From a virus: DNA of 20,031 bases. The notes beneath the pieces are model-generated. The model had not been told where the DNA came from and made no database searches. It saw only the letters and a program-made list of their open reading frames with translations. This document shows, one piece after another, positions 193-15,762 of the stretch. The position numbers were made by a program, and so were the translations under genes. Within the stretch, counting starts at the first letter, position 1. Each line of letters starts with the position of its first letter. Location: positions 1-20,031 of the IMG/VR virus record IMGVR_UViG_3300035681_000155. One strand, written 5' to 3'.

Positions 193-210
193 TGTTGCAA
201 AAATGCAACA
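193..210. promoter_or_regulatory. 18-bp inverted-repeat operator 1a (TGTTG-N8-CAACA)
   Basis: TGTTGC-aaaaat-GCAACA, with arms extending to seven perfect pairs. It is one of ten copies in the window. Its centre falls about 45 bp upstream of the predicted start site of P1. This is probably a protein-binding site, and the binding protein is unknown. Confidence 0.7.
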
Positions 211-212
211 AA

Positions 213-455
213 TTACTGTTGTTTTTCTGCAACATGCAAGCGCCAGCGCTTTCCGCGACCAGCGGGCACCTGTACCATACTAACCTCATGCCCTTGCTGG
301 CGAAGAATATCTGCTGCTTGGGCATACTCGGCGTACATCCACCCCCAAACTTTCAAGCTACGCCGACCATCGACCAGCTTATCATTGAAAATTGTAGAAC
401 CACGACCACTAATCGTTCGAATAGCAGAAGCAACTTTGAATGTCTGAGTAATCAT
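213..455 (-). CDS. small basic protein of unknown function
   Basis: This 80-residue protein has many basic residues, especially near the C-terminus (PAGRGKRWRLHV), which suggests nucleic acid or protein binding. I recognise no named domain. The start is supported by a GGAGA ribosome binding site with good spacing. The gene follows the 20-codon reading frame at 470-532 and is transcribed from promoter P2 (568-595). Its stop codon lies between operators 1a and 1b of the next operon, and operator 1b encodes its last residues, so the regulatory sites are nested in coding sequence. Confidence 0.75.
   Translation of the reverse strand: MITQTFKVASAIRTISGRGSTIFNDKLVDGRRSLKVWGWMYAEYAQAADILRQQGHEVSMVQVPAGRGKRWRLHVAEKQQ
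217..234. promoter_or_regulatory. 18-bp inverted-repeat operator 1b
   Basis: TGTTGT-ttttct-GCAACA. Its centre is 24 bp from that of operator 1a, about two helical turns. It overlaps the last codons of the gene at 213-455. Confidence 0.7.
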
Positions 456-469
456 TACACTGTCTCCAA

Positions 470-532
470 TTAAGCGTAAGAAACCAGTTCATCGGCGAGA
501 GCGTAGACATCAGCGTGAGAGACATATGCCAT
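470..532 (-). CDS. 20-residue micro-protein or leader peptide
   Basis: A reading frame encoding MAYVSHADVYALADELVSYA follows a strong GAGGAAAG ribosome binding site and is the first frame after promoter P2. It ends about 15 nt before the start of the gene at 455, whose own ribosome binding site lies in the gap. The peptide looks like one amphipathic helix. It could be a real micro-protein, a leader that couples translation to the next gene, or the remains of a larger gene. The ribosome binding site is as good as those of its neighbours, which favours translation. Confidence 0.5.
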   Translation of the reverse strand: MAYVSHADVYALADELVSYA

Positions 533-567
533 GATTCTTTCCTCGTTTCAATCACTCAACAGAATCA

Positions 568-595
568 ATTATACACCTTCTAGCGAGAAGTGCAA
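568..595 (-). promoter_or_regulatory. sigma70 early promoter P2
   Basis: Minus strand: TTGCAC (595-590), a 16-bp spacer, TATAAT (573-568). The region from the -10 box into the leader is nearly identical to that of P5 (14347-14374). Two operators lie upstream, the nearer one 14 bp from the -35 box. Confidence 0.85.
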
Positions 596-609
596 CCACT
601 TTTTTCGGG

Positions 610-627
610 TGTTGTTTCAATGCAACA
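610..627. promoter_or_regulatory. 18-bp inverted-repeat operator 2a
   Basis: TGTTGT-ttcaat-GCAACA, centred about 58 bp upstream of the predicted P2 start site. Confidence 0.7.
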
Positions 628-631
628 AAGG

Positions 632-649
632 TGTTGTTTTTTCACAACA
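632..649. promoter_or_regulatory. 18-bp inverted-repeat operator 2b
   Basis: TGTTGT-tttttc-ACAACA, 22 bp centre to centre from operator 2a. It covers the stop codon of the gene at 642-869. Confidence 0.7.
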
Positions 650-869
650 TGAAACGCTGCAAGATTTCGTTACTTTCACGGTAGCTCTCATCCTCCTCGA
701 GGTCTTGGTCAATCATCTCCAGCAGGAGCACATGCAGAAGCACAACTGCATCCTGCTGATCCTTAAGGTTAAGTGTGTCTAGCCAGGCGTCTAGATCTGT
801 GCGACTGCTAATCGTCCACATGATATCGAGGAGTTCCTTCTGTCGCTTGGTAACGCCTTCAATTCTCAT
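642..869 (-). CDS. conserved-looking small acidic helical phage protein
   Basis: 75 residues, almost entirely predicted helix and acidic in its second half (DQDLEEDESYRES). The pattern TKRQKELLDIMWTI...LDTLNLKDQQDA...LQRFML resembles a small protein of unknown function that recurs in T4-like marine phages; this is from memory and not confirmed. Its start lies inside the end of the SWIM-protein gene (11-nt overlap), so it is probably co-transcribed from P3 and translationally coupled. Its ribosome binding site is weak, which fits coupling. Confidence 0.7.
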   Translation of the reverse strand: MRIEGVTKRQKELLDIMWTISSRTDLDAWLDTLNLKDQQDAVVLLHVLLLEMIDQDLEEDESYRESNEILQRFML

Positions 870-1245
870 GGGTGATCTTTTTGCTTACTGCTTGTGAGTG
901 CTTGCAGGTCCTGCGGTAAGAAAATCCCGTGCAGGTGCAAGAAATTTTGCCACCAACAGCGCTGACAATGTACGACTTGCCCGTAGACTTGCTGGTGACT
1001 CGAAACTGCCTTGTGCTCGAGGTGTCAACAGAGACAGCAGATCCCGATACAATCTTGAGTTCAACCACTCGAGAGATATCAATGACCGCTTTGGGGAAGT
1101 CAGGATTGCCCGTAGCAACAGCAAACTGAGAGGGGGTTAACCACGGCATGCGAGGAATGACTGTGCCTCGAGTGGTGTACTCTCGAGACCCATGATACTG
1201 AGTCCTCACCATGATTGAAGAACCGACTGACGGCATAGAACGCAT
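859..1245 (-). CDS. SWIM zinc-finger protein
   Basis: The C-terminal part carries a complete SWIM-type zinc-binding motif: CTC (C103, C105 in a 128-residue product), then CKH (C114, H116), in the context ISCTCTGFSYRRTCKHSQ. SWIM domains occur in bacterial SWI2/SNF2 ATPases, MuDR transposases and MEKK proteins and bind DNA or protein. Here the domain stands alone, preceded by a Ser/Thr/Val-rich beta-like segment (residues 55-100). A start at 1245 is chosen because AGGAGG lies at 1250-1255, just upstream. The alternative ATG at 1260 precedes that site and falls at the predicted transcription start of P3. Transcription would come from P3. The protein is small enough to be an early DNA-binding regulator or host-takeover protein, but that is inference. 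Confidence 0.75.
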   Translation of the reverse strand: MRSMPSVGSSIMVRTQYHGSREYTTRGTVIPRMPWLTPSQFAVATGNPDFPKAVIDISRVVELKIVSGSAVSVDTSSTRQFRVTSKSTGKSYIVSAVGGKISCTCTGFSYRRTCKHSQAVSKKITHEN

Positions 1246-1266
1246 AGAACCTCCTGACATGCCATC

Positions 1267-1295
1267 ATCATAGCGAAAGATAAGTTCATTGTCAA
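1267..1295 (-). promoter_or_regulatory. sigma70 early promoter P3
   Basis: Minus strand: TTGACA (1295-1290), a 17-bp spacer, TATGAT (1272-1267). It drives the SWIM-protein operon. Its -35 box overlaps the stop codon of the metallopeptidase gene (1292-1294). Confidence 0.8.
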
Positions 1296-1945
1296 GAGAA
1301 ATCTTTTATGGTGGGTAACCAAGTGTTGGTTTTTCGCAACAGCTCTTCACGTATATGCACCCATCTTGCCCCCCGGAACGCCTTTTTATAGGTTTTCCAC
1401 ACCGCTAACTGGTTGTATTTACTGATATTATTTAGTATAATTTGCGGGTTTTTGTCGGGGTAGTGAAACTTGATTTCCATGGCTAGGTCGTGGGCGTAGG
1501 CGTCGATCTCATCCATGTTGGCAAAGTATTCAAGCGTTCTTATTCTTGTCTTTGATGAGCATCTAACAAAGTTCACTACCTTAGCGTAGAAACGATTTTC
1601 GCCTCGCTTAGTAAACTGATACTTATGCATCATCTCATGCTGTAGAGTCTGATTGAGGAGGAAAAGGAATCTCTTCTTCCTGTTGGGAGTAAAGTTTATT
1701 AGGTTAGAGGGATTTAGATGAACGATGATGCTGATAGGTCTTTTGACCCTATAGGGATCAAACTCCCCTCCTATCTTAAACGGGGTTCTAGATGTAAACC
1801 TAAAGTCATAGATGACTTCTATGCCAGCACCGAAAGGGCTGATCATCCGCTGCGTCTTTTCTAAGAAAAGTTCAGCAGTTACTTCTCCTTGCATCCATTC
1901 TGTATTTTTATTCAACCTTCTCCAGATTCGTCTACCTTGATACAT
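1292..1945 (-). CDS. putative zinc metallopeptidase (HExxH)
   Basis: 217 residues containing HEMMH at residues 103-107 inside a helix (LQHEMMHKYQ), the standard zinc-binding and catalytic motif of zincins. About 40 residues later comes ANMDEIDAYAHDL; E146 or D148 could be the third zinc ligand, as in gluzincin-like folds. No signal peptide or membrane segment is visible, so it would act in the cytoplasm. The start has an AGGAGA ribosome binding site. The promoter immediately upstream is a T4-type TATAAATA (1972-1979) overlapping the gp41 stop codon, so expression is probably late, unlike the early genes around it. A late role such as processing of a virion or host protein is possible. It does not resemble the T4 prohead protease gp21, which is a serine protease. 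Confidence 0.7.
   Translation of the reverse strand: MYQGRRIWRRLNKNTEWMQGEVTAELFLEKTQRMISPFGAGIEVIYDFRFTSRTPFKIGGEFDPYRVKRPISIIVHLNPSNLINFTPNRKKRFLFLLNQTLQHEMMHKYQFTKRGENRFYAKVVNFVRCSSKTRIRTLEYFANMDEIDAYAHDLAMEIKFHYPDKNPQIILNNISKYNQLAVWKTYKKAFRGARWVHIREELLRKTNTWLPTIKDFS
1324..1341. promoter_or_regulatory. 18-bp inverted-repeat operator 3 (single)
   Basis: TGTTGG-tttttc-GCAACA. This is the only copy that breaks the Y/R position of the consensus. It is also the farthest from its promoter (28 bp from the -35 box) and lies inside the 3' end of the gene at 1292-1945. Confidence 0.6.
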
Positions 1946-1971
1946 AGCTTTCTCCTGAAGGTTACTTAAAC

Positions 1972-1979
1972 TATTTATA
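1972..1979 (-). promoter_or_regulatory. T4-type late promoter (TATAAATA)
   Basis: Minus strand TATAAATA, an exact match to the T4 late -10 element read by the gp55/gp33/gp45 late system. It begins before and runs through the gp41 stop codon (TAA at 1975-1977) and lies about 27 bp upstream of the metallopeptidase start, the usual distance. There is no -35 box, as expected for this class. Confidence 0.65.
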
Positions 1980-3357
1980 CCTTGAAGCCAGAAAAGTCCC
2001 TTTGTGATTTTTTGTTTAGAGTCTCGATACTGAGAACAGGTCTAGATTCACCCATGTCAGAGACACCCCTCTGAGCAGAATCTTCTAGATCATACAACTT
2101 CATCTTGCTTCTATCTACACCGATCAGAAATCTCTTGTTTGCAGACGGATCGTTGTATCTATTCTTTAGTTGCTTGACCATCAACTGACCTAGCTTCTCT
2201 AATTCTTCTGTGCTGATAAGTGCAAACATGAAGTCGGCAGTCGCAGGCAAACCAAACGATTCTGAAGTATCTGTCAGTTCAACATCAGTGTTGCCATATC
2301 CTCCTCGAGTTGTCTGTGTTGCAGACACGATAGGAATATTGTGCTCAACTGCTAGGCCTCGAAGTTCCTCGGCAATCGACTTCACCATCATGTAACTATT
2401 GATGTTGCTGTTTGCTTTGAATCTCGAACTTGCACAGATGTTCAAATAGTCAACGAACAGAATGTCAGGTTTGAAGTTTCGCTTGAGAGATAGTTCATTC
2501 AAAAGTGACTTGAAGTGACCCACATGTGCTGATGCAGTAGGATATTCCTTAATGATTAGTCGACCTTGAGTCTTGTTGGTGATCTTCTTGACACGATTCT
2601 CAAACACATTCTTAGGAAGATCCTTCAACTCGTCAATCGCTGTATTCATTAGGTTCGCATCAATACGCTCTGCGATTCTTTCTTCTGCCATCTCAAGTGT
2701 GATGTACAAAACATTCTTGCCTTGTTCGAGACAACTTGCTGCCACATGACACATGAACAAACTCTTGCCCACCCCGGTTCCTGCAAGACAGATATTAAGC
2801 GTCTTTCGAGGCAACCCACCATTGGTTATGGTGTTAAAGTATTGCAGATCAAAAGCAAGTTTGTCCTCTACTTTATTGTAGAAGTCATATCTTGCCAAGG
2901 CATCATCGATATAGTCGTGACCCACTGAGGTATCGAAACAAGTTCCCAATGCCTCTTGCAGCAAAGTAGGAATGGCATCCTTTGCATGAACTTTGTCTCG
3001 TCCGTCAAGAATGCCTATGGATGCTACGATTGCATTATAAACTGCACGATCTTTACAATACTTCTCTGTCTCATTGACCAACCAATCAAGGTTAGGATCA
3101 GGTTCACCAAAGGTATTGACAATACCCATCACCTCGCTGAAGTTATCTTCAGCAATCGTCTTGTCATTATGAAAGGCGATCTCGATTGCATCCTTTGTGG
3201 GCAGCGAGTTGTAGGAGTTAATGAACTCAGATATGTGTTTGAAAATTATCTTGACATTGGGGTCTGTAAAATACTCTTCTTTGAGAAATGGAAAGACCTT
3301 CCTCATATACTTTTCATTGTACATGAGGTTGTTCAGAATAGTATTCTCAATTGCCAT
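1975..3357 (-). CDS. 41: DnaB-family replicative helicase (T4 gp41-like)
   Basis: 460 residues, close to T4 gp41 (475). It is the hexameric 5'-3' helicase that unwinds the fork and works with the primase. Seen in the sequence: an N-terminal helical domain (about 1-150), then the RecA-like motor with Walker A GTGVGKS (193-199), the catalytic glutamate in LEMAEER (E222), Walker B ILFVDY (D303) and the DnaB motif SATQTTRGGYG with downstream arginine-rich elements. It follows the small gene at 3347-3634 with a short overlap and lies in one minus-strand block with uvsX and gp43, so all three are probably co-transcribed. The assignment is firm; the accession-level relative is not determined. Confidence 0.95.
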   Translation of the reverse strand: MAIENTILNNLMYNEKYMRKVFPFLKEEYFTDPNVKIIFKHISEFINSYNSLPTKDAIEIAFHNDKTIAEDNFSEVMGIVNTFGEPDPNLDWLVNETEKYCKDRAVYNAIVASIGILDGRDKVHAKDAIPTLLQEALGTCFDTSVGHDYIDDALARYDFYNKVEDKLAFDLQYFNTITNGGLPRKTLNICLAGTGVGKSLFMCHVAASCLEQGKNVLYITLEMAEERIAERIDANLMNTAIDELKDLPKNVFENRVKKITNKTQGRLIIKEYPTASAHVGHFKSLLNELSLKRNFKPDILFVDYLNICASSRFKANSNINSYMMVKSIAEELRGLAVEHNIPIVSATQTTRGGYGNTDVELTDTSESFGLPATADFMFALISTEELEKLGQLMVKQLKNRYNDPSANKRFLIGVDRSKMKLYDLEDSAQRGVSDMGESRPVLSIETLNKKSQRDFSGFKV

Positions 3358-3634
3358 TAGTTTCCTTGTAATCTTCGATTGCTTTTGACAGTATATCAGA
3401 AATGATCAGTTGAAACAACTCCACAAAGTTAGATTTGTCAAAATCTTCTTTGACCATACCATCAGGAAAGTTTACGATATGAAAGTCAACTTGCAACTCG
3501 CCAGATGTGTCATCCTTGAACTCAACCCCCTCAATCTGAATGACTGCATCCTTGTACTCGCCTTGAGTGATTTCTACACCCCAACTAGCATTACCAACTG
3601 CCCAGGGGCGATATAGTTCATTAAGCGTTGTCAT
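3347..3634 (-). CDS. small conserved replication-block protein, unknown function
   Basis: A protein of about 95 residues starting MTTLNELYRPWAVGNASWG. A start at 3634 is preferred because GAGG lies upstream at good spacing. An alternative TTG at 3646 would place that ribosome binding site inside the gene. It overlaps the 3' end of uvsX by 14 nt and the start of gp41 by 11 nt, so all three are translationally linked. The middle reads as beta strands (VIQIEGVEFK, ELQVDFHIVNFP) and the end as a helix, acidic overall. I recognise it only as the small gene found between uvsX and gp41 in marine T4-likes. A role in the recombination or helicase-loading machinery is a guess from position. Confidence 0.8.
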   Translation of the reverse strand: MTTLNELYRPWAVGNASWGVEITQGEYKDAVIQIEGVEFKDDTSGELQVDFHIVNFPDGMVKEDFDKSNFVELFQLIISDILSKAIEDYKETNGN

Positions 3635-4670: not shown

Positions 4671-4679
4671 TTGGTTTCC

Positions 4680-7160
4680 TTATGCAAAAAGATCTTCTAG
4701 TGTCGCCTGTTGCTTTGCACTCCATCCCATACCACCCAGGATAGTTTCAAGTGGTTCAATAAACGACTTCTGAAACATTGTATTGTAGTCGATGAATTTT
4801 GTCAATCCCAACTCATCGGGCAATCGACTTACGAAAGCGATACAGTTTTCTCCGATGGGGTTAGGTTCCTTCAAGTACAGAAACTTTATCTTGTCCCCCT
4901 CTTGGATGGGTTCATACTTCTTTTCGAGTTTGTGCTTCTTCACATGAAAGTTGTATAGCAATGATCCTCGCACATGCATGGGAGTCGCCTGTTTATAGAT
5001 GTTCGCAGGACAACCATACTTCTGCAAACCATTCACACCTCGAGGAAAGGCAATCTCGTGTGCCTTAAGTTTTTTGAAGTCATCCTCAACCTTCAGGATG
5101 TAACTTTGTAGTTGATTCTGTGTTGCTGTAAGTGCAAGACGAACTGCCTCACGCAGTGCCTCTCTAACAGGTTCAGGAGTCGATGACTTTACAATCTCGA
5201 GTCCCATGACCTTTAGTTTAGGTTCCTTGTACCTGACTCCTTCATTGTCATAGACATTCAGCGCATAGCGTTTCTTCGCAACCCAAATGCCACGATCTGC
5301 AATTGCCTCACGCTTGAAGTAGATCTTCTTCTCGAATGCATTGACATAGGATGCCATGCCATCACAAGAATCGTTAATGACCTTGACGATCTTCTCTTCA
5401 CAGATTTTGTCTAGAATTTCGATCAACTTCTCTTTAGGAAGATTTGAGTAGAACTTTTTGACTAGAGGATCGAGTGTGATATAGCAACTGTCTGTATCGC
5501 TGTAGAAAGAATAGTCAAAGTTTTTTGTTCCGCAAACTTTGTTAAGGTATTCGTTAAGTGCCTTACCTACTCTCTGGATTATATATTGACCTGTGAGCGT
5601 GATACCTTCTGCAATCCGATCATCATAGAATCTAAAGTATTCGTTGCCCCATGCACCAAACAGCGAGTTCAACTGAATCTTTCTAGCCATCTGAAAGTTG
5701 TTGTACTTCGAGATATCTTTCTGATGTTTCTTATCTTTAGTTTCCTCGTATTGCTTTTGAGCAGCAATCATTGACTTCTTGTATCGCTGTCTGTCATCAA
5801 ACAACTTCTGAACGATCTCAGGAAACAATCCTTGCTTGTCTCGACGGTAGAAGTATCCATTTGCCGCCATGCAATCGTCATCGTTCAAATCAAAGGTATG
5901 GTGCACCATTCCGTCAATCGTTGTATCGAATGTCTTTCCTCGAACCATTGTCTCAGGAGACATGTTCCATTGCATGATGATAGAAGGATACAGAGAAGTT
6001 GCATCGAAAGAAACTACCCAATCATACTTTCCGGGAACTGGTTCCTTAACGAAGGCACCAATGATTTGCCTACCGCGCCTTGACTCATCCCGCTGATGAA
6101 CCACAACCCCTTTGTTCCAGCAATGATTGTACAGAATACAATCCCAAGTTCGCACTGCCGAGAACACATCATTGTAGTTACACTTGGCATCATACGCCAT
6201 AGTGATGATGAGTTCAATGAGTCGCAGTTTATCTTCTAGTTGGTCGACTAGTTCAACATCAACCACATTGTACTCTACGAATCGTTGCCAGTCATTGCGG
6301 TAGAACTCTCGAAAAGTATCATACTCATGGGTTAGCTTTTGCTTACCCAATTCGACCTTTGCGATATGATCTAGTTTGTCTGATTCTTGTCGTGTGTAAG
6401 TAAACTTCTTGTAGAGATCGAGATAGTCAAGAATCGAGATGCCTAGAATGTCAAAGGCGATAACCTGCCTACCCATGCGCTCGAATGACTTGTCATTGAT
6501 AACACCCCAAGGAGACAGGCGCCGAACCGCACTCTCGCCCAAGACCTTTTCGATCCGGCGAATTAGGTATGGGATATCAAACACCTCGCAATACCAACCA
6601 GTCAGAATGTGAGGATAGTCCTGTTGGATTAGCAAGACAAACTTTTCAAGCAGATCGCGCTCATCCCGACACTGTACATACTGGTGATTTTCCTGCTTCA
6701 CCGTGAAGGGTTCACATCCAAAGGTGATAAGTTCCTTACTATTTGCATTCTGCAAAGTGATGAGAAGGACTGCCTCGATGGGATTAGTTACATCAGGAAA
6801 TCCATGCTCAGCAGATGTCTCAATGTCAATCGAGTAGATAAGCAACTGAGACATGTCGAACTGTATCTCATCAGGATAGTTCTCTGAGATGTATTGATAG
6901 GCAAAGTTCTTGTTGCCGTAGATTTCAAAGTTCTCTACTTCAGAATACTGCTTGATGAAATCTTTAGCTTCGTTGATATCACCGAACTCGATTCGCTCAA
7001 GATAGTCGCCAAACAGAGACCTGAACTCTGTTTTGTTCTTGCCCTTGACAAAGAGAGATGGTTTGAAAGGAACCTTAGTGGTTGTCTTATGTCCTTTCAC
7101 AATGCCTCGAAATAAAATCTTACTGCCATACTGCAAGACATTAGTGTAGAAGTTAGACAT
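4680..7160 (-). CDS. 43: family B DNA polymerase (T4 gp43-like)
   Basis: 826 residues against 898 in T4. It replicates the phage genome with 3'-5' proofreading. Exonuclease motifs: DIET (D112, E114, the same numbers as in T4), WYCEVFDIPY (D195) and YNVVD (D301). Polymerase motif A is DATSLYPSII (D386), motif B KIQLNSLFG (494-502) and motif C YSDTDS (D555, D557). All catalytic acids are present, so proofreading and synthesis should both be active. The tail LEDLFA resembles the C-terminal sliding-clamp binding tail of T4-type polymerases. The start is set by GGAGAACCT. A 6-bp hairpin (7181-7195) and a tRNA gene lie just upstream. Confidence 0.97.
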   Translation of the reverse strand: MSNFYTNVLQYGSKILFRGIVKGHKTTTKVPFKPSLFVKGKNKTEFRSLFGDYLERIEFGDINEAKDFIKQYSEVENFEIYGNKNFAYQYISENYPDEIQFDMSQLLIYSIDIETSAEHGFPDVTNPIEAVLLITLQNANSKELITFGCEPFTVKQENHQYVQCRDERDLLEKFVLLIQQDYPHILTGWYCEVFDIPYLIRRIEKVLGESAVRRLSPWGVINDKSFERMGRQVIAFDILGISILDYLDLYKKFTYTRQESDKLDHIAKVELGKQKLTHEYDTFREFYRNDWQRFVEYNVVDVELVDQLEDKLRLIELIITMAYDAKCNYNDVFSAVRTWDCILYNHCWNKGVVVHQRDESRRGRQIIGAFVKEPVPGKYDWVVSFDATSLYPSIIMQWNMSPETMVRGKTFDTTIDGMVHHTFDLNDDDCMAANGYFYRRDKQGLFPEIVQKLFDDRQRYKKSMIAAQKQYEETKDKKHQKDISKYNNFQMARKIQLNSLFGAWGNEYFRFYDDRIAEGITLTGQYIIQRVGKALNEYLNKVCGTKNFDYSFYSDTDSCYITLDPLVKKFYSNLPKEKLIEILDKICEEKIVKVINDSCDGMASYVNAFEKKIYFKREAIADRGIWVAKKRYALNVYDNEGVRYKEPKLKVMGLEIVKSSTPEPVREALREAVRLALTATQNQLQSYILKVEDDFKKLKAHEIAFPRGVNGLQKYGCPANIYKQATPMHVRGSLLYNFHVKKHKLEKKYEPIQEGDKIKFLYLKEPNPIGENCIAFVSRLPDELGLTKFIDYNTMFQKSFIEPLETILGGMGWSAKQQATLEDLFA

Positions 7161-7180
7161 AGGTTCTCCAAATGAAGAAA

Positions 7181-7195: not shown

Positions 7196-7199
7196 AAAA

Positions 7200-7277: not shown

Positions 7278-7281
7278 GATA

Positions 7282-7366: not shown

Positions 7367-7371
7367 ATAGT

Positions 7372-7766: not shown

Positions 7767-8155
7767 TAGCTAAACTCCCTCGCTGAAAAACTGTATCCTT
7801 CTTCATCATCCCAATCATATTCGGGATTGAACCAAGTGTGCCCATACTTATCCGGCTTTCTACCTTCATCATTGTGAATCTGGTTCTTACGCCCACGATC
7901 ATTTACAAAATTTGGAGACTTTTGATTCTCAATGTATTCCACAAACCAATCGTAGTCGATTCGTTCACGATACTCGTCCATGATGATCTTGTCTTTCAGA
8001 AATTCTTTCCATTGTTGCCAAGAGACAAGACGTTCTGGTCGATAACCTTGAAACGAGAATGCCCAACCAAATGAAGATTTGCCGATATGATACTCTTCAT
8101 CATACCGGTCACAGCATTCACAGTGGTTAGAAGCAACATAATAATTAGTTCCCAT
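7766..8155 (-). CDS. conserved phage protein, GTNYY family, putative zinc binding
   Basis: 129 residues starting MGTNYYVASNHCECC. The N-terminus carries CECC and a following HIGKSSFGWAFSFQGY. I recall the pattern GTNYY...C..C...HIGKSS.GW.F from small proteins in many unrelated phages. A zinc ribbon or finger is plausible from the cysteines (with H8-C15 nearby), followed by an aromatic-rich, Asp/Glu-rich C-terminal half. Function is unknown. A start at 8155 gives GGAG a 7-nt spacing; the adjacent ATG at 8158 is the alternative. It overlaps the upstream stop codon. Confidence 0.8.
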   Translation of the reverse strand: MGTNYYVASNHCECCDRYDEEYHIGKSSFGWAFSFQGYRPERLVSWQQWKEFLKDKIIMDEYRERIDYDWFVEYIENQKSPNFVNDRGRKNQIHNDEGRKPDKYGHTWFNPEYDWDDEEGYSFSAREFS

Positions 8156-8346
8156 CATTCAACTCCAAAATGTTTCTTAATCTTACGCAAAAGGTCGACT
8201 CGTTCCATATCCCAACCCAACTGCTTTGTAGCCATAACAACATTACTGCCGGGACGATCTATCATATCTTGACATTGCTGTGCATGGCGAAGTTGCACAT
8301 CAATCATACCTTCAATAAGTTCAATTTCTCGTTCTGATAAGGTCAT
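8155..8346 (-). CDS. 63-residue helical protein ending in KKHFGVE
   Basis: Predicted as two or three helices (SEREIELIEGMIDVQLRHAQQC, ERVDLLRKIKKHFGVE). The last residues KKHFGVE match the C-terminal tail of the NERIREL-type proteins at 12133-12333 and 13362-13589, although the N-terminal NERIREL box is absent. It may be a diverged member or a product of recombination at the shared tail. ATGA overlaps at both ends place it in the operon. Confidence 0.75.
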   Translation of the reverse strand: MTLSEREIELIEGMIDVQLRHAQQCQDMIDRPGSNVVMATKQLGWDMERVDLLRKIKKHFGVE

Positions 8347-8822
8347 TCTCCAATCCTTTCTTTATACTCTTTCGTGGGAGTGTAGGGAAAGGTCACCGGG
8401 ACACGACTTTCAATACTGGTAAAATGACTCTTATATCGTTCACCAGTTTCCTCATCAATTCGCCAATCATAGAACACGATACCATCAATGTCATATGCTC
8501 CATTATTATCTTTGAACACATGACTACACCGTTTGTTCTGAAACAGCGGACCATTGTCTCGGCCACCATATTCACTTACGTCATGCCATTCCCAATCTTC
8601 ACCAGTCAGTGGTGCAAGCGGCTTAAACAAGGCTAACTTAGAAAATAGATTAACAGTATAAGGTGCAGAGGAACCAGAATGCCCTTCATTTTCAAAAACT
8701 GCAAGAAGCCCTAAAACATGCAGACAAATATCTTTCTGCATCTCATCTTCAAATTGATTATTCTCATCTACCCAACCTGCTGCACGGAACTCAGCCCATG
8801 CATGTCTCTCATAATTATTCAT
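8343..8822 (-). CDS. conserved phage protein of unknown function
   Basis: 159 residues with the pattern ERHAWAEFRAAGW...SGSSAPY...LALFKPLAPLTGEDWEW...QNKRCSHVFK...AYDIDGIVFYDW. This pattern is familiar from hypothetical proteins of many phages of Proteobacteria, where it is single-copy and of unknown function. No catalytic motif is evident. The single Cys-Ser-His and acidic-aromatic motifs could be a binding site. It overlaps both neighbours by ATGA, so it is translationally coupled. Confidence 0.8.
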   Translation of the reverse strand: MNNYERHAWAEFRAAGWVDENNQFEDEMQKDICLHVLGLLAVFENEGHSGSSAPYTVNLFSKLALFKPLAPLTGEDWEWHDVSEYGGRDNGPLFQNKRCSHVFKDNNGAYDIDGIVFYDWRIDEETGERYKSHFTSIESRVPVTFPYTPTKEYKERIGE

Positions 8823-10486: not shown

Positions 10487-10695
10487 TACCATTGATCCTT
10501 TTCAAGCCATTCTTCAGCATCTTCAATGTTATCGAAAATTTCACCATGTTGACGGTACCGATCTTCACATGGACCACACACAGCCTGATATGCAATGGCT
10601 TTATTCCCTTCGCGGTCATTTGCTTTGGTCATAACATTATGCACATGATAAAAGTCATCAACTTCATGCCCACATGATAGCACAATGTTACTCAT
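10486..10695 (-). CDS. small zinc-finger-like protein (CGH...CGPC)
   Basis: 69 residues with SCGHEVDD near the N-terminus and VCGPCEDRYRQHG about 30 residues later. Four candidate ligands (C8, H10, C40, C43) match the compact CGH...CxxC treble-clef type of finger often seen in phage accessory proteins. The acidic tail DNIEDAEEWLEKDQW is helical. Function unknown; DNA, RNA or protein binding is possible. It overlaps the upstream gene by ATGA and the next by TAATG. Confidence 0.78.
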   Translation of the reverse strand: MSNIVLSCGHEVDDFYHVHNVMTKANDREGNKAIAYQAVCGPCEDRYRQHGEIFDNIEDAEEWLEKDQW

Positions 10696-10925
10696 TTGTC
10701 AACCTCAAACCAGTTACTAATATGTTGTTTAGCACCAACGGCTCCATATGATTGTTCCTTAAGCCCATGGGTAAGCAATCCAACTTCAGCCACTTCACAC
10801 ATTCGCATACATTCTCGCACAATCAACTCGGCGAACTTTACAGGATCCAGTTCACCTGCAACATAGTCACCGTTGCTTTCCAGCACTAGTGCTTGATCAT
10901 AAAGTTCTCGAATTCGTTCGTTCAT
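10692..10925 (-). CDS. NERIREL-family small protein, copy 1
   Basis: 77 residues, MNERIRELYDQALVLESNGD followed by DPVKFAELIVRECMRMCEVA. It shares with three other genes here the N-terminal MNERIREL box, a central FA(E/D/K)LIV.EC helix and the same size. The tail is diverged (HISNWFEVDK where other copies have KKHFGVE). I know this family as recurrent small phage proteins of unknown function. The start follows the upstream stop by one base. Confidence 0.8.
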   Translation of the reverse strand: MNERIRELYDQALVLESNGDYVAGELDPVKFAELIVRECMRMCEVAEVGLLTHGLKEQSYGAVGAKQHISNWFEVDK

Positions 10926-10926
10926 T

Positions 10927-11136
10927 TTATCGTCCCACTGTTTGAATACGCAGGTTCAGTGCTTGTTCAGCATCAACCAAAGCATCTACACGATTGATCA
11001 GTTCTCTATAATCAGGTCTTAGGTGACGACGATGAGTTAGTCGGCGTTCCAATTCTGCACAATCGACTAAATGATCCCGCAGACCTTTGAGGGCACTGAC
11101 TAGATCGTCTCGTGTGTCAAATGTTAGATCGCTCAT
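10927..11136 (-). CDS. small helical coiled-coil protein
   Basis: 69 residues starting MSDLTFDTRDDLVSALKGLR. It is almost wholly helical and rich in Arg, Leu and Asp (CAELERRLTHRRHLRPDYRE), consistent with a short helical hairpin or coiled coil. Start 11136 gives GGGAG an 8-nt spacing and a TGATG overlap with the upstream stop. No family is recognised. Confidence 0.75.
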   Translation of the reverse strand: MSDLTFDTRDDLVSALKGLRDHLVDCAELERRLTHRRHLRPDYRELINRVDALVDAEQALNLRIQTVGR

Positions 11137-11282
11137 CACACAAACTCCCAAAACAATTTCGGATTCATTTTACGGCGTTGGGTCCAATAGGGAATTGCCC
11201 AAGCAAGATTAGTCTCAATCACAATAGGGGTCATTTCACACATAAGATTCTGTTTACGACTTGCATACACTTTCATCAACAC
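11136..11282 (-). CDS. 48-residue basic protein, first gene of the P4 operon
   Basis: The frame reads (M)LMKVYASRKQNLMCEMTP and ends KMNPKLFWEFV. A GTG start at 11282 has AAGGAG six bases upstream. An in-frame ATG at 11276 is the alternative, with a 12-base spacing. Longer starts would fall inside promoter P4, so they are rejected. It is basic and possibly beta-strand rich. No family is recognised. It heads the operon that runs down to the tRNA and replication genes. Confidence 0.65.
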   Translation of the reverse strand: MLMKVYASRKQNLMCEMTPIVIETNLAWAIPYWTQRRKMNPKLFWEFV

Positions 11283-11312
11283 AAACTGCTCCTTGTCATT
11301 CACTATACCGAT

Positions 11313-11341
11313 ATTATAGCAAAAAGCGGTATACCTGTCAA
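11313..11341 (-). promoter_or_regulatory. sigma70 early promoter P4
   Basis: Minus strand: TTGACA (11341-11336), a 17-bp spacer, TATAAT (11318-11313), both boxes perfect. Transcription would read the small-gene operon 11282 to 7372 and possibly continue through the tRNAs into gp43. Confidence 0.87.
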
Positions 11342-11353
11342 GCAAAAGTTAAG

Positions 11354-11371
11354 TGTTGTATTCGTGCAACA
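11354..11371. promoter_or_regulatory. 18-bp inverted-repeat operator 4 (single)
   Basis: TGTTGT-attcgt-GCAACA, 12 bp upstream of the P4 -35 box. It directly abuts the stop codon of the gene at 11372-11635. Confidence 0.7.
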
Positions 11372-11635
11372 CTATTCAGAACCACTGTCGGGGCTTGTTT
11401 TCCCATCAGGTCCACTAATGTCATACCGACCACCACATTTGCCACAGTAGAACCAAGACCAACCAAAGCCATTGTCGTGGTATTTACCGCCTCGGTGTCC
11501 TTCAAGAAAACAATCACGAAGCAATTGTTTCTTAGCAGGCAAGTAGACAGTATTGTCATACTCAGCCAGGAGTTCTTCCATCTTTAGTGCCCTAGCACGA
11601 TCAATCTCACCTCGACGTTTCCAAATGTCACTCAT
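11372..11635 (-). CDS. putative zinc-binding small phage protein
   Basis: 87 residues. An N-terminal helix (DIWKRRGEIDRARALKMEEL) leads to a block with candidate zinc ligands: DCFLEGHRGGKYHDNGFGWS then WFYCGKCGGRYD. C42 and H47 with CGKC would make a four-ligand site. The Gly-His-Asn-Gly-Trp context is familiar from phage hypotheticals. The C-terminal tail is Gly/Ser/Asp-rich and probably disordered. It starts inside the end of the gene at 11628-11795 by 8 nt. Confidence 0.78.
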   Translation of the reverse strand: MSDIWKRRGEIDRARALKMEELLAEYDNTVYLPAKKQLLRDCFLEGHRGGKYHDNGFGWSWFYCGKCGGRYDISGPDGKTSPDSGSE

Positions 11636-11795
11636 ACTTAACGCCCATATGGTTTAGAATACGCATACAGTCATCGCTTAAACATTGATTAGCACATTCC
11701 CTAACAATCAACTCGGCGAACAATTCTAAATCAATATGCACATTGTAGAATTCATTATGGGATTCTTCAGCAAGTTCTCGAATTCGTTCGTTCAT
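11628..11795 (-). CDS. NERIREL-family small protein, copy 2
   Basis: 55 residues: MNERIRELAEESHNEFYNVH, then IDLELFAELIVRECANQC and a short tail ILNHMGVKYE. It has the N-terminal box and the central FAELIVRECANQC helix of the family, but a shorter middle. ATGA overlap with the upstream stop (11792-11794) and an 8-nt overlap with the next gene support it as a real gene. Confidence 0.78.
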   Translation of the reverse strand: MNERIRELAEESHNEFYNVHIDLELFAELIVRECANQCLSDDCMRILNHMGVKYE

Positions 11796-12133
11796 ACATC
11801 ATCCTCGCCACAAAAAACTTTTGTAAGGTCAGCAATGTTATAACCTTTCAAGCTTAGTTTGCTTCTTGCCGGAATATTACCTCGCACATATTCATACTTG
11901 ACAAACTTTCCCAAGCCTTCATCAATTTCTTTCACAGTCTTTCCATGCCATACTTTGCCAAGAATGTATTTGACTTTTACCCACTTTACGTTGTTCTCAG
12001 GAGTACCTGAATACTCGCTTTTAAAACTGTAGTAATCACTGTGACCTCCACCCATAGAAACAATATTTAATGGACGGCACCAATCTTCTGGATCAATAAC
12101 ATCATTGTCTTCAAGCATTTGAATGGAGATCAT
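11792..12133 (-). CDS. protein of unknown function
   Basis: 113 residues starting MISIQMLEDNDVIDPEDWCR. The centre is beta-like and basic (VKWVKVKYILGKVWHGKTVK), with Lys/Gly-rich loops, and the end is acidic (FCGEDDV). Start 12133 gives GGAG a 7-nt spacing. The ATG one codon upstream (12136) also works and overlaps the upstream stop. A start at 12172 would overlap most of the neighbour's tail and is rejected. No family is recognised. Confidence 0.75.
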   Translation of the reverse strand: MISIQMLEDNDVIDPEDWCRPLNIVSMGGGHSDYYSFKSEYSGTPENNVKWVKVKYILGKVWHGKTVKEIDEGLGKFVKYEYVRGNIPARSKLSLKGYNIADLTKVFCGEDDV

Positions 12134-12333
12134 CATTCGACTCCGAAATGTTTCTTTAGGTCCTCGATGCATCGACGGACTTCCATGTCCTCGCGGTTCA
12201 GGTCGCCCATGTACCGCTTCTGAACTACGCCGATAGCCTCATTTACGATAAGGTCGGCGAATTTTTCGGCATCGAACACCGTAGGAAAATTCTTCCAACT
12301 CTCCATCATCAATTCTCGAATCCGTTCATTCAC
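12133..12333 (-). CDS. NERIREL-family small protein, copy 3 (GTG start)
   Basis: 66 residues: (M)NERIRELMMESWKNFPTVF, then DAEKFADLIVNEAIGVVQK and the family tail DLKKHFGVE. A GTG at 12333 is chosen because it aligns with the ATG of the other copies and forms a GTGA overlap with the upstream stop. The usual Cys of the central helix (LIV.EC) is replaced by Ala (VNEA). Confidence 0.75.
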   Translation of the reverse strand: MNERIRELMMESWKNFPTVFDAEKFADLIVNEAIGVVQKRYMGDLNREDMEVRRCIEDLKKHFGVE

Positions 12334-12506
12334 TTTACAATCTCTCTGCAATATTTAACAGCATCAGTATACAGCATGGTGCCATTCTTGTCAAGACAGT
12401 TGTTGTAAATACGCATCTTTTCCAACTTACCACCAATAACAATTAGTAAAACAATAGCCGCAAGTGTTAAACCTGTTACGGGAAAGACCCACCAATTATC
12501 ATTCAT
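12330..12506 (-). CDS. small single-span membrane protein
   Basis: 58 residues starting MNDNWWVFPVTGLTLAAIVL. One transmembrane helix (about residues 5-25, LTLAAIVLLIVIGG) is followed by a charged tail with two cysteines (NNCLDKNGT and VKYCREIVK) spaced 15 residues apart. Start 12506 has GAGG seven bases upstream. Similar one-helix proteins with two tail cysteines are frequent in accessory phage operons. A holin is unlikely in this early minus-strand position. Confidence 0.75.
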   Translation of the reverse strand: MNDNWWVFPVTGLTLAAIVLLIVIGGKLEKMRIYNNCLDKNGTMLYTDAVKYCREIVK

Positions 12507-12705
12507 CTTCACACCTCGGTCCATGTTCAAGGTAATCTTTCATAAAAACATCATTATGTTCTAGGTAGAACTTATGATATTCCCAGCCTTTGCGAAAAGT
12601 CTCAAATCTAATTCCCGCAAGTCTCATACCTTCTTCAGTCATAGGTACAGCATATGCTTCGGAGTCTCGCCATGCATCGTGGATCAGTTGTTCTTGTTCG
12701 TTCAT
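12499..12705 (-). CDS. small helical protein of unknown function
   Basis: 68 residues starting MNEQEQLIHDAWRDSEAYAV, with FETFRKGWEYHKFYLEH in the middle. The last motif resembles the product of 9928-10158. Start 12705 is chosen because of the GGA-TTGAAA context and the MNE start seen in neighbouring genes. An upstream start at 12768 would duplicate coding of the neighbour. Its first 71 nt overlap the end of 12635-12979 in another frame. Confidence 0.72.
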   Translation of the reverse strand: MNEQEQLIHDAWRDSEAYAVPMTEEGMRLAGIRFETFRKGWEYHKFYLEHNDVFMKDYLEHGPRCEDE

Positions 12706-12979
12706 TTTCAATCCAATTGTAAAAGTTGATAGTTTGATCGGTACTATTTGCCCAACGATCAAACTCATTTAATGGGCAACTAATGTCAACAAAGAAATCA
12801 GGAAATGCCCAGTAGCGAAAACGATACATGCGGCTGCCTTTCTTTGCAATAGCACCCCATTTGAAAAAATCACGGCGAACCTTGTAGCCAAGCTTTTTTA
12901 GTAGAGTCTTGAATTGACTTGCACTCATGCCAAACAGTTGCTCGCGGCGAGGTTTTTGTGATCGATATTTGAACTTCAC
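12635..12979 (-). CDS. basic protein of unknown function with long 3' overlap
   Basis: 114 residues starting at a GTG that overlaps the upstream stop as GTGA. The N-terminal 60 residues are very basic (KYRSQKPRREQLFG, LLKKLGYKVRRDFFKW), followed by an aromatic beta-like part (YRFRYWAFPDFFVDISCPL). The natural end may have been near NWIE: after that the frame runs 71 nt into the next gene and encodes a compositionally different Arg/Thr/Cys-rich tail, suggesting a lost stop codon. No family is recognised. Confidence 0.7.
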   Translation of the reverse strand: MKFKYRSQKPRREQLFGMSASQFKTLLKKLGYKVRRDFFKWGAIAKKGSRMYRFRYWAFPDFFVDISCPLNEFDRWANSTDQTINFYNWIENERTRTTDPRCMARLRSICCTYD

Positions 12980-13200
12980 TTCCACATATCCTTAGAAAAG
13001 ATAGGTTGACAATGCTCACCAAGTTTATTCATGTCACTAACCATTTCCATATCCGATTCAAAGGGATAGTGCCGCAGAAGCGACCGAGCGCGATCCCGAA
13101 CCTCTTTGGGAACTCGCGGAGTCTTAGACGGAATGAGAAGGTCAAAGAGAAACTCACGGGTTGAATTAACTGCCCGGAGTCTTTCGAATGGTAGAGTCAT
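12976..13200 (-). CDS. BPSL0761-like small protein
   Basis: 74 residues: MTLPFERLRAVNSTREFLFD, then KTPRVPKEVRDRARSLLRHY and a C-terminal CQPIFSK. The patterns RTRAV..TREFL and (K)TPRVPK.VR.RA..LLRHYP match my memory of the BPSL0761 family, small proteins of unknown function in Proteobacteria and their phages or prophages. This hints at, but does not prove, a proteobacterial host. The start overlaps the preceding remnant by ATGA. No good ribosome binding site is seen, so coupling is likely. Confidence 0.8.
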   Translation of the reverse strand: MTLPFERLRAVNSTREFLFDLLIPSKTPRVPKEVRDRARSLLRHYPFESDMEMVSDMNKLGEHCQPIFSKDMWK

Positions 13201-13295
13201 GTTGAAAAATAACCTATAATGTAAAAGGAACCTTTAGTGTATGACCATTCACAATCTCGTGCTGTGACCGTAAACAATGGTTTCTTATCACTCAT
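13197..13295 (-). pseudogene. truncated RF-1-like (peptide-chain release factor-like) remnant
   Basis: 32 residues, MSDKKPLFTVTARDCEWSYT, followed by KGS and then an unrelated hydrophobic tail (FYIIGYFST). The start matches the small phage and bacterial RF-1-domain proteins whose pattern is LFSVT.KD..W.Y.KGSG.GGQ..NKTSS. Here the sequence stops matching exactly where the catalytic GGQ loop should begin, and the next gene starts at the end of the frame. It therefore looks like a 5' fragment left by a deletion. The frame is still linked by overlaps at both ends and could be translated, but not as a release factor. Confidence 0.55.
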
Positions 13296-13365
13296 TTTCA
13301 TCTCTCATTTCAAAAACGTAATGCCCACAACCACCGGGTATATACCGAACTCGGAAGTGAGTCAT
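13288..13365 (-). CDS. 25-residue micro-protein
   Basis: The frame MTHFRVRYIPGGCGHYVFEM then RDENE. Its ATG forms an ATGA overlap with the stop of the gene at 13362-13589, and its stop overlaps the start of the next frame. It reads like one beta hairpin (FRVRYIPGG-CGHYVFE). It may be a real micro-protein or the end of a decayed gene. The overlaps on both sides are the main support. Confidence 0.45.
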   Translation of the reverse strand: MTHFRVRYIPGGCGHYVFEMRDENE

Positions 13366-13589
13366 TCTTCAACTCCAAAATGTTTCTTGATTGCCCGAGA
13401 ACAATCGTGGGTACCTCTTGCCCATTCTGAACTCATTTTATGATCGAGCAACAGATCACATTGGTTGGCACACTCCCCCACAATCAACTTGGCAAACCGT
13501 TCGAGTTCTTCTTCTGTAAAAACCCACTTCTCGCTAGCGATGTTCTCTACTAGCGCATCTAAAGCTAAATCTCTAATTCGTTCGTTCAT
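13362..13589 (-). CDS. NERIREL-family small protein, copy 4
   Basis: 75 residues: MNERIRDLALDALVENIASE, then EEELERFAKLIVGECANQC and tail RAIKKHFGVEE. This is the most complete copy, with all three family elements (N-terminal box, FAKLIVGEC helix, KKHFGVE tail). Start 13589 has GAGG five bases upstream and lies 7 nt after the stop of the gene above. It is transcribed from P5. Confidence 0.82.
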   Translation of the reverse strand: MNERIRDLALDALVENIASEKWVFTEEELERFAKLIVGECANQCDLLLDHKMSSEWARGTHDCSRAIKKHFGVEE

Positions 13590-13596
13590 AATAACC

Positions 13597-14310
13597 TCAC
13601 GCAAGTTTAGCACGGATCATGGTCGTCTGCTTAGTGCCCTTGTACTCATCATGGGACTTAACCGTAGCAGCGATCTTGACGGGGGCACCAACTTCAACTC
13701 TAAGATCCTTCCAGATGTTGACGATGTTGCCGAAGCAATCACGGAACACGGACAGGAACATGGGCCCGAAGCTACTCATACCCATGTCCCGACCACGCAC
13801 CAGCACGGCGTCAATAACCAGCTTATCGCCAGGTTGGCCCAGCCAGTTGCTGACAGGCTCTGCAGCTTTCTTAGCAGCAACCTCGGCATCAGTAGGCAGA
13901 GCAAACGGAGCCACAACAGCAGGATCACGCTGCCAAAGCAACTTCGTTTTGCTGGCATCGGGGGCCCAACCATCACGCAGGTTGCCCTTGCCGCCCACTT
14001 TGTACTGAGCAACCACGCCCAGCGTGTCCACGACAAAGACATAGAGCACAGGGATCACGCTGCGACTGCCGTAGTCTGCCCAGCGAGTATACGCCGTGGC
14101 TTCCACAGTGACTTGGTCAGCAGCCACAGGCACGGCCCAATGGTTGGCAACCTGCTCCCGAGTGTGACAGCTATTGAAGCGGGCGCTGTACTGTCGGAAC
14201 AGGAACTGGGCCTGCTTAGCTGACTTGAAGAACCCCAGGTTCTTGTTGCACAAGCCTTTGAGGCTGATGAACAGGTTTTGCTCATCTGGGCTAGCGAAGT
14301 CGAAACTCAT
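13597..14310 (-). CDS. conserved protein with probable C-terminal OB-like domain
   Basis: 237 residues starting MSFDFASPDEQNLFISLKGL. The N-terminal 70 residues are helical and include NLGFFKSAKQAQFLFRQY and HTREQVANHWAVPV. The rest is beta-rich, ending VGAPVKIAATVKSHDEYKGT then KQTTMIRAKLA. That ending (VK.HdeYkG.kqT.l.R.K) is a pattern I associate with small OB-like C-terminal domains of phage DNA-metabolism hypotheticals. A single-stranded DNA-binding role is possible but unproven. GGAG sets the start. It is visibly more GC-rich than its neighbours (about 52-55% in sampled lines against about 42%). Confidence 0.75.
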   Translation of the reverse strand: MSFDFASPDEQNLFISLKGLCNKNLGFFKSAKQAQFLFRQYSARFNSCHTREQVANHWAVPVAADQVTVEATAYTRWADYGSRSVIPVLYVFVVDTLGVVAQYKVGGKGNLRDGWAPDASKTKLLWQRDPAVVAPFALPTDAEVAAKKAAEPVSNWLGQPGDKLVIDAVLVRGRDMGMSSFGPMFLSVFRDCFGNIVNIWKDLRVEVGAPVKIAATVKSHDEYKGTKQTTMIRAKLA

Positions 14311-14346
14311 CTGAATCTCCAATAAATGAATCACTCAACAGAATCA

Positions 14347-14374
14347 ATTATACAGGACTCAGCAGAAAGTGCAA
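14347..14374 (-). promoter_or_regulatory. sigma70 early promoter P5
   Basis: Minus strand: TTGCAC (14374-14369), a 16-bp spacer, TATAAT (14352-14347). The -10 region and leader closely match P2. It drives the operon from 14310 down to at least 11372. Confidence 0.85.
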
Positions 14375-14386
14375 CCGGTTTTTGCA

Positions 14387-14404
14387 TGTTGCGAAAATAC
14401 AACA
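14387..14404. promoter_or_regulatory. 18-bp inverted-repeat operator 5a
   Basis: TGTTGC-gaaaat-ACAACA, 12 bp upstream of the P5 -35 box, centred about -56. Confidence 0.7.
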
Positions 14405-14408
14405 ATTT

Positions 14409-14426
14409 TGTTGTGTAAAAACAACA
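14409..14426. promoter_or_regulatory. 18-bp inverted-repeat operator 5b
   Basis: TGTTGT-gtaaaa-ACAACA, 22 bp from operator 5a and 5 bp downstream of the stop of the gene at 14432-14749. Confidence 0.7.
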
Positions 14427-14431
14427 CCTAG

Positions 14432-14749
14432 TCAAGGGGTGATCCAGCGGATATTTTCTTCGAATCTGATGTTTTCATACCCATCATACTCATCTATGAC
14501 AAAGCGTCTGCCCTCAGGAACCCAGCAAATTGTCAGGTCAGAAGCTCCATCATAGCCGCTCTCGCCGTACTTTTCCCGGCAGTATTCAATGATGGTATCT
14601 ACATCCTCATCATCATCGGGGTTCTCGAGCATCGCCACGATCTTGGGATCGAAAAGCATTTCCTCGATGCCGTACCAGGAGTACCATCCCGCGCCATATC
14701 CAGGAGAAACCAGGACGGCGACTTTACCATCACGCACCACTTTATCCAT
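14432..14749 (-). CDS. conserved phage protein, SPGYGAGWYSW family
   Basis: 105 residues: MDKVVRDGKVAVLVSPGYGA then GWYSWYGIEEMLFDPKIVAM, a very acidic centre (ENPDDDEDVDTIIEYCREKY) and a C-terminal beta part (LTICWVPEGRRFVIDEYDG). The start IRDGKVAVL.SPG.GAGW.TW is a pattern I know from small proteins in many phages, function unknown. It overlaps the upstream gene by 8 nt and belongs to the P6 operon. Confidence 0.82.
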   Translation of the reverse strand: MDKVVRDGKVAVLVSPGYGAGWYSWYGIEEMLFDPKIVAMLENPDDDEDVDTIIEYCREKYGESGYDGASDLTICWVPEGRRFVIDEYDGYENIRFEENIRWITP

Positions 14750-15122
14750 TAGATAAACTCCTGCTCAGGTACCCGAAAGGAAGCCCATTGGTATACTCAA
14801 AGTGTTCATTATCTCCGGCTAGATCTTCGGCGTCCATCAACCACCCGATGGCACGGTCCCTGCTAGCTCCAATCTCGAGGAGTTTAGAAACTCGTTCCTC
14901 GAACCGGCAAATTGCTTCCTTCTCCGCCGCACGCTCTTCTTCCATGACCTCTTTCAACTGAATGGAGAGCGCCTCAATCTGAGCAATGAAACCTTCCAGC
15001 GTCCAATTGGAAGTGTCCACACCGCGAGGGCGAACCCCGTGGACATCTTTGTACATGTCCCACCAAGTGGCTTGCGCCTGCTCGAGGGGGGTCAACTCTT
15101 CCCAACTTTTCAGATCGCTCAT
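14742..15122 (-). CDS. conserved phage protein, first gene of the P6 operon
   Basis: 126 residues starting MSDLKSWEELTPLEQAQATW. Conserved-looking elements: WDMYKDVHGVRPRGVDTSNW, a long acidic helix (EALSIQLKEVMEEERAAEKE), RDRAIGWLMDAEDLAGDNEH and YTNGLPFGYL. I recall this architecture from hypothetical proteins in many podo-, sipho- and myoviruses. The start at 15122 fits the leader after P6; a TTG 21 nt upstream is rejected. Function unknown; the long helix suggests coiled-coil assembly. Confidence 0.82.
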   Translation of the reverse strand: MSDLKSWEELTPLEQAQATWWDMYKDVHGVRPRGVDTSNWTLEGFIAQIEALSIQLKEVMEEERAAEKEAICRFEERVSKLLEIGASRDRAIGWLMDAEDLAGDNEHFEYTNGLPFGYLSRSLSNG

Positions 15123-15155
15123 CTTTCTACGCCTTGTTGTCAATCAACACTATGC

Positions 15156-15183
15156 ATTATACAGGTCTTGCATGAAAGTGCAA
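15156..15183 (-). promoter_or_regulatory. sigma70 early promoter P6
   Basis: Minus strand: TTGCAC (15183-15178), a 16-bp spacer, TATAAT (15161-15156). It drives the two-gene operon 15122-14432. Confidence 0.85.
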
Positions 15184-15197
15184 CCACTTTTTTACGG

Positions 15198-15215
15198 TGT
15201 TGTTTTGTTACAACA
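15198..15215. promoter_or_regulatory. 18-bp inverted-repeat operator 6a
   Basis: TGTTGT-tttgtt-ACAACA, 14 bp upstream of the P6 -35 box. It covers the stop codon of the HNH gene (15208). Confidence 0.7.
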
Positions 15216-15762
15216 CTCGAGAATGCCTAGGGAGCCCGGTTTTCAGGTACTCCATCTGATCGGCAAGAATGTTGCGATTTTGCAACAGAAGGTGCTCATA
15301 TAGGTTTGGAATGTAAGGGGCGTAGCACAGTTCCATGCCTGCTTCTTCTGGAGTGCGACTTCCCTTAGACATGTTGCAACCCATGCAAGAAGTGACCACA
15401 TTCATCCATTTGTTTTCACCTCCTCGCGCTCGAGGTACGATATGGTCTCTTGATAAGTTTCTGTAGTTGAACTGCTTAGCACAGTAAGCACAGGTGTGCT
15501 TGTCACGACCAAAGAGGGTTCGATTAGTTAAAGACACACGACCAGAACGCTCTTTCTTGTAGGCAGATGTATCTACTGCAATGATTGAATGTGTGGTTAC
15601 TGAGGAACGCTCTCCAGTTTTGCGCTGTATACCTCCGTAAAGAGTTCTTACAGGTTCACCTAGCGTCCAAGAAACTTTTCCTGTTGTGTAGTAAGAGACA
15701 GCTTCTTTGATAGTCAACCATTCACGCGGCATACCTGCAATGTCAAGTGAAAGGATTTGCAT
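15208..15762 (-). CDS. HNH endonuclease
   Basis: 184 residues. The N-terminal part (EWLTIKEAVSYYTTGKVSWT) resembles the small helical domain before many phage HNH nucleases. The nuclease core holds zinc ligands CAYC (C91, C94) and CMGC (C126, C129), the catalytic DHIVP (D106, H107), N121 in MNVV and N130 with KG after it, so all HNH elements are present. It cuts or nicks DNA. It could be a free-standing homing endonuclease or a phage-encoded defence or packaging-type nuclease, and the sequence does not decide. GGAGTGAACT sets the start. It lies just downstream of two tRNA genes, a common site for such genes. Confidence 0.88.
   Translation of the reverse strand: MQILSLDIAGMPREWLTIKEAVSYYTTGKVSWTLGEPVRTLYGGIQRKTGERSSVTTHSIIAVDTSAYKKERSGRVSLTNRTLFGRDKHTCAYCAKQFNYRNLSRDHIVPRARGGENKWMNVVTSCMGCNMSKGSRTPEEAGMELCYAPYIPNLYEHLLLQNRNILADQMEYLKTGLPRHSRVL
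15270..15287. promoter_or_regulatory. 18-bp inverted-repeat operator 6b (inside HNH gene)
   Basis: TGTTGC-gatttt-GCAACA, wholly within the HNH coding sequence and 72 bp centre to centre from 6a, much farther than the 22-24 bp of the tandem pairs. It could be a distal site that loops to 6a, or a chance match; its arms are perfect. Confidence 0.5.

Follow-up and report, generated by a model that had tools for sequence, protein, structure and literature searches.

The DNA analysed here, called the window in the following, is a 20,031-nt stretch of the IMG/VR virus record IMGVR_UViG_3300035681_000155. It contains genes for a DnaB-like helicase, UvsX and a family B polymerase and is therefore T4-like. 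An 18-bp inverted repeat, TGTTG-N8-CAACA, occurs ten times in the window, which raises the question of what this element does, in which phages it is found and what binds it. A first-pass annotation had described the repeat as an operator regulon that fits an activator, or an upstream-acting repressor, better than a simple blocking repressor, with a SWIM protein as one candidate binder. The regulon and an activator acting from upstream find support in the recurrence across whole genomes, in conserved footprints, in positions clear of the core promoter and in helical phasing, whereas the SWIM protein does not. Our main reading, to which we give a probability of roughly 0.55, is that TGTTGY-N6-RCAACA is the operator of a dimeric DNA-binding protein with class I-like upstream activation of early-type sigma70 promoters. 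The evidence is good that the repeat marks an operator regulon linked to early-type promoters.

Operator copies and promoters in the window

All ten coordinates of the first-pass annotation were right, and its exclusion of chance holds: dinucleotide shuffles of the window gave a mean of 0.10 copies and a maximum of 2, and never 10. Nine of the ten copies fit TGTTGY-N6-RCAACA as described, the exception being the copy at 1324 with G at position 6. The operator copies are:

193-210: copy 1 (TGTTGCAAAAATGCAACA), proximal in a tandem pair; degenerate in L228, a 91% relative
217-234: copy 2, distal in the pair with copy 1; overlaps the 3' end of ORF 213-455; conserved in L228
610-627: copy 3, proximal in a pair; half-sites conserved in L228
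632-649: copy 4, distal in the pair with copy 3; overlaps the 3' end of ORF 642-869
1324-1341: copy 5, variant TGTTGG...GCAACA; within the 3' part of ORF 1292-1945
11354-11371: copy 6; adjoins the stop codon of ORF 11372-11635
14387-14404: copy 7, proximal in a pair; half-sites conserved in L229
14409-14426: copy 8, distal in the pair with copy 7
15198-15215: copy 9; overlaps the 3' end of the HNH ORF 15208-15762
15270-15287: copy 10; within the HNH ORF
10723-10740: degenerate copy with 1 mismatch (TGTTGTTTAGCACCAACG), 43 nt upstream of the -10 box at 10679-10674

The promoters beside them, all on the minus strand, are:

164-191: sigma70-type promoter, 12/12, 16-nt spacer (-35 at 191-186, -10 at 169-164)
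568-595: TTGCAC-16-TATAAT, served by copies 3 and 4
1267-1295: TTGACA-17-TATGAT, drives the SWIM-protein ORF 859-1260
11313-11341: TTGACA-17-TATAAT, 12/12
14347-14374: TTGCAC-16-TATAAT, drives ORF 13597-14334
15156-15183: TTGCAC-16-TATAAT, drives ORF 14742-15143

The tandem copies are 24, 22 and 22 bp apart, in agreement with the 22-24 bp reported before, and no copy overlaps a core promoter, again as claimed. The statement that all copies stand beside promoters needs one correction: nine of the ten lie within 70 nt of a promoter, and the copy at 15270 is ~108 nt away from the -10 box of promoter 15156-15183. At 217, 632, 1324 and 15198 the copy shares sequence with the 3' end of the gene upstream. 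Strong minus-strand promoters with -10 boxes at 4782, 12371 and 16268 have neither an exact nor a one-mismatch operator copy, and the strong minus-strand promoter with its -10 at 10679 has only the one-mismatch copy. Judging by promoter type and gene neighbourhood, the site-bearing promoters are presumably early.

A 5' leader, TGTTGANTGATTG(AAAC), is conserved right behind the -10 box in several site-bearing promoters (window 124-163, 530-567, 14305-14346 and 15120-15155, minus strand). It repeats the half-site TGTTG near the transcription start. The window also holds small paralogous ORFs at 10692-10925 (starting MNERIREL), 11628-11795 and 12133-12351, and their cluster reaches 13 site-bearing records.

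Recurrence, geometry and mode of action

Scans of IMG/VR found tandem operator pairs in 113 stretches, and in at least 120 stretches TGTATAAT follows an operator site at a distance of 25-50 nt. Element and placement alike recur in many T4-like phages of IMG/VR and are not peculiar to the contig of the window. Three T4-like genomes of 162-169 kb hold 20, 11 and 8 copies, with the backwards control pattern at 0 in each. Among 5-mer gapped palindromes the operator ranks first, or shares first place, in nearly all site-rich genomes, the exceptions being G003 (3-4 copies) and the fragment G024 (3 copies). Equal abundance at random positions had been named as grounds for giving up the regulon. Instead, a promoter was found within 70 nt of 118 of the 131 copies in 15 contigs or genomes, compared to 4.2% of random positions; some of these records were picked for holding the motif, so that the counts describe the placement of copies and not the frequency of the motif. 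All 20 copies in G001 (162 kb) and all 11 in G002 adjoin a promoter. In G001, the stretch from 70.9 to 97.1 kb contains 18 of the 20 copies and the remaining two fall within 151.9-154.6 kb, whereas the portal gene lies elsewhere, at 12.7-14.0 kb.

The T4-like records G018-G023, obtained from the UvsX search, contain 0 or 1 copies. Among cultured T4-like phages, ACP17, Cr30 and HTVC008M have 0 copies and BUCT-ZZ01 has two, with no recognisable promoter adjoining. A genome-contig scan for tandem pairs returned 27 stretches of scattered taxonomy, and a literature search for the operator motif string gave no match.

Some other repeats were encountered. In Streptomyces spiroverticillatus (L313, L319) a single contig carries TGTTGTCCGCGGACAACA at least 12 times without mismatch, with ten of these copies packed into 3.6 kb, and this looks like a separate local regulon. 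Tandem pairs of the TGTTGC-N6-GCAACA type occur in Parageobacillus, Geobacillus and Calidifontibacillus (L307, L312, L317) with no TATAAT within 72 nt downstream, except at 24/44 nt in L317. A second element, TCAAGAGCTTA, stands just upstream of promoters or of TGTTG sites (L502 at ~7402 and 8638-8676, L504 at 980 and 1341, L475 at 8130-8168, L486 at 1840) and is also found in sister phages that have no TGTTG site. We rejected ATAAC-N7-GTTAT in G019 as a like regulon, since it is an internal repeat, mostly in one block, with no promoter link.

The distance between site and TATAAT peaks at 28, 38, 48 and 58 nt, which corresponds to site centres at about -49, -59, -69 and -79 with TATAAT set at -12 to -7. 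The best period is ~10.25 nt (Rayleigh nR2 = 26; 196 gaps, 148 promoter clusters). For strict clusters, built on spacer and downstream sequence and contributing one gap each (n = 78), nR2 was 9.0 with a Monte Carlo p of ~0.001, and a null preserving the smoothed shape of the gap distribution gave a higher value in one or more of its 5000 trials; the phasing is best described as a tendency. These clusters replaced a 50%-identity clustering on the whole core, which lumped unrelated promoters and blurred the phasing test. The gaps between site and -10 box in the window are 23/47, 36/58, 51, 35, 34/56 and 36 nt, most of them close to the preferred phase, with the copies at 193 and 1324 off phase. 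Sites less than 23 nt from the -10 box are almost absent, and the -35 and -10 boxes are almost never covered. Across records, the spacing of tandem copies is mostly 21-25 bp, inside the limits set by the scan.

Given the helical phasing, the protein at these sites probably approaches RNA polymerase on a constant face of the helix, and the sites stand above the -35 box at phased distances, as those of class I upstream activators do. Spacers of 16 nt were observed in 125 of the 208 site-bearing promoters, and imperfect -35 boxes (TTGCCA, TTGCAC) in many of those in G002, G004 and the window; both are expected where promoters profit from help. Upstream activation is the most likely mode. A dimer would bind each palindrome, and a pair of dimers the tandem sites. 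Bound upstream of the -35 box and on a fixed helix face relative to RNA polymerase, the dimer or dimers would most simply touch the C-terminal domain of the alpha subunit, and this contact would raise the occupancy of the promoter.

Several points speak against activation. Many site-bearing promoters come close to the consensus and ought to manage unaided, the motif-free relative G018 runs many 12/12 promoters without the operator, and a repressor that contacts the polymerase from upstream would also give phasing. Such a repressor, of phage or host origin, would lock the polymerase via its alpha subunit, for example in a later shut-off of early genes, and strong core promoters, phasing and tandem sites fit it as well as they fit activation. 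We consider it unlikely, however, because simple repressor sites over -35, -10 or +1 are almost absent and repression from upstream only is uncommon among known repressors.

Candidate binding proteins and distribution

The SWIM protein has homologues in the motif-free G019 and in motif-free loci, and phmmer found none in the site-rich G001, G002 and G004. As its gene is not co-distributed with the operator, a SWIM protein regulon was rejected. We likewise rejected an Ogr/Delta protein, as no such gene (CX2CX22CX4C, PF04606) exceeded the family cut-off in 23 records, four of them T4-like genomes of 162-172 kb, and family B, an HTH_39 protein, which occurs in motif-free phages too. None of the BLAST clusters common to G001, G002 and G004 and absent from G018, G019 and G022 was regulator-like. 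The best candidate for a regulator encoded by the phages themselves is the winged-helix family A:

G001: 69373-69765
G002: 101879-102292
G003: 55426-55851
G004: 148949-149317
G009: 17772-18167
G028: 16502-16990

Family A has no Pfam or PHROGs match and 406 related stretches in viral contigs. By hmmsearch it is present in 6 site-bearing records, including G001-G004, and in none of the motif-free G018, G019 and G022. The operator lies upstream of the family A gene in 40 of the 53 loci that have at least 3 kb of upstream sequence (103 sites versus 1 control in 1.09 Mb), and in G004 and G009 the gene is the first behind a site. The protein is predicted to form a winged helix with a fold weakly similar to MarR/PadR/ArsR regulators. 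A phage regulator would also agree with the scanned bacterial genomes, as 399 Pseudomonadota and 194 Cyanobacteriota show practically no instance of a site combined with a promoter in this way. On the other hand, several family A sub-clades whose recognition helix is identical (MYRISTYMWHIKT, MYRLSTYIWHIKT) have 0 sites in up to 10 kb upstream, a divergent helix (YRLSTNIYNIRK) accompanies the same operator, and the window, itself only a fragment, has no family A gene, as is the case for some other site-bearing fragments. Family A is attractive by location and, weakened by the same-helix sub-clades without operator, fits poorly as the binder; regulation by a phage-encoded protein seems rather improbable to us.

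We lean towards a regulator encoded by the host, or a factor that is already there when infection begins. Scans of ~590 bacterial genomes revealed no regulon, with one chance-level match in each of the two bacterial groups, and the phages' host may lie outside this thin sample; in a host-genome scan the number of sites per genome was at most 11. A cyanobacterial host was considered and rejected: the nearest cultured relatives are cyanophages but only ~55-62% identical, and no psbA family match exceeded the cut-off in 28 records.

On the UvsX tree the operator is patchy, with six changes, at least three of them forced by well-supported branches, where many operator-minus rows represent only 10-21 kb around UvsX and G018, G019 and G022 represent 139-167 kb. 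The UvsX of the window is closer to that of the motif-free G018 (81%) than to that of the motif-rich G001 (55%). This patchiness, together with the equally strong, operator-free promoters of G018, indicates that the operator is an optional layer that is gained, lost or swapped. The patchy distribution would suit a factor supplied by the host or a promoter cassette that is mobile. It is conceivable, at somewhat less than even odds, that T4-like lytic phages have wired their early genes to a sequence-specific, host-encoded activator which gates or boosts the first wave of transcription.

Nature of the element and comparison with known systems

Conservation upstream of orthologous genes, the test named by the first-pass annotation, was seen in the closest relatives (91% UvsX identity). 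Across three orthologous promoter regions 58 of 60 half-site positions were identical compared to 34 of 48 in the centres and 71 of 121 in the upstream flanks, with one of the three pairs (A3) conserved throughout and adding little to this contrast. Y at position 6 and R at position 13 were found in 93% of 306 copies not selected for them, and the two positions do not covary (Fisher p 0.14). The 8 nt following the site contain 29% T, with 5 or more T in 6% of the cases, so there is no T-run. The conserved half-sites, the Y/R preference without covariation and the missing T-run indicate a protein site in DNA and not an RNA structure. As inverted repeats in gene-to-gene gaps right before promoters, the sites could be taken for PeSL-like Rho-independent terminators or RNA hairpins at gene ends; the same lack of T-run and covariation together with a mean folding energy of only -5.8 kcal/mol makes this highly improbable, and it gives no reason for the helical phasing. 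Equally hard to credit is a palindrome merely carried along, with no binding protein, in the ~55-nt promoter cassettes that are repeated inside the window, as the half-sites stay intact while centre and upstream flanks change and the same palindrome occurs in phages with UvsX only 55% identical.

T4-type early transcription is usually put down to very strong promoters alone. A phased palindrome that is shared and swapped among related phages implies a separate transcription factor at the first step of infection, in a group of widespread, uncultured viruses. With its clean sequence signature the operator marks early-type promoters in the genomes of environmental phages, and it offers a handle to fish out the factor. 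If this is a host activator, infection could be matched to those physiological conditions under which the activator works, and the operator could be gained or lost as lineages change hosts.

Among known systems, CRP-type class I activation uses sites at successive helical turns around -50, -60, -70 and -80 with the palindrome TGTGA-N6-TCACA. The successive-turn positions are alike, whereas the palindrome and its half-site spacing differ. Ogr/Delta activation works via the alpha subunit. The Ogr/Delta site at the late promoters of P2/P4 is TGT-N12-ACA (PMC3931495), which is exactly the outer part of TGTTG-N8-CAACA, and in both cases an activator site, putative here, lies upstream of the -35 box of sigma70 promoters. 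However, the P2/P4 promoters are late promoters of temperate phages that need a phage zinc-finger protein, whereas here the cores are near consensus and the 23 records hold no PF04606 gene over the cut-off. PeSL cassettes of T4-type phages (Arbiol 2010, Comeau 2014; as cited in PMC4503421 and PMC5931544) combine an early promoter with an inverted repeat. The small intergenic gaps and the repeated cassettes with a sigma70-type early promoter are shared, while the inverted repeat here is not a terminator and has no stem-loop with a U-run. T4 early promoters (UP/-35/TGn/-10) are likewise strong promoters for the host sigma70 in which the region upstream of -35 carries information (PMC2988021). 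In T4 this information consists of UP elements rich in A/T, which the alpha subunit itself reads, whereas here a fixed palindrome for a separate putative protein would replace them or be added to them.
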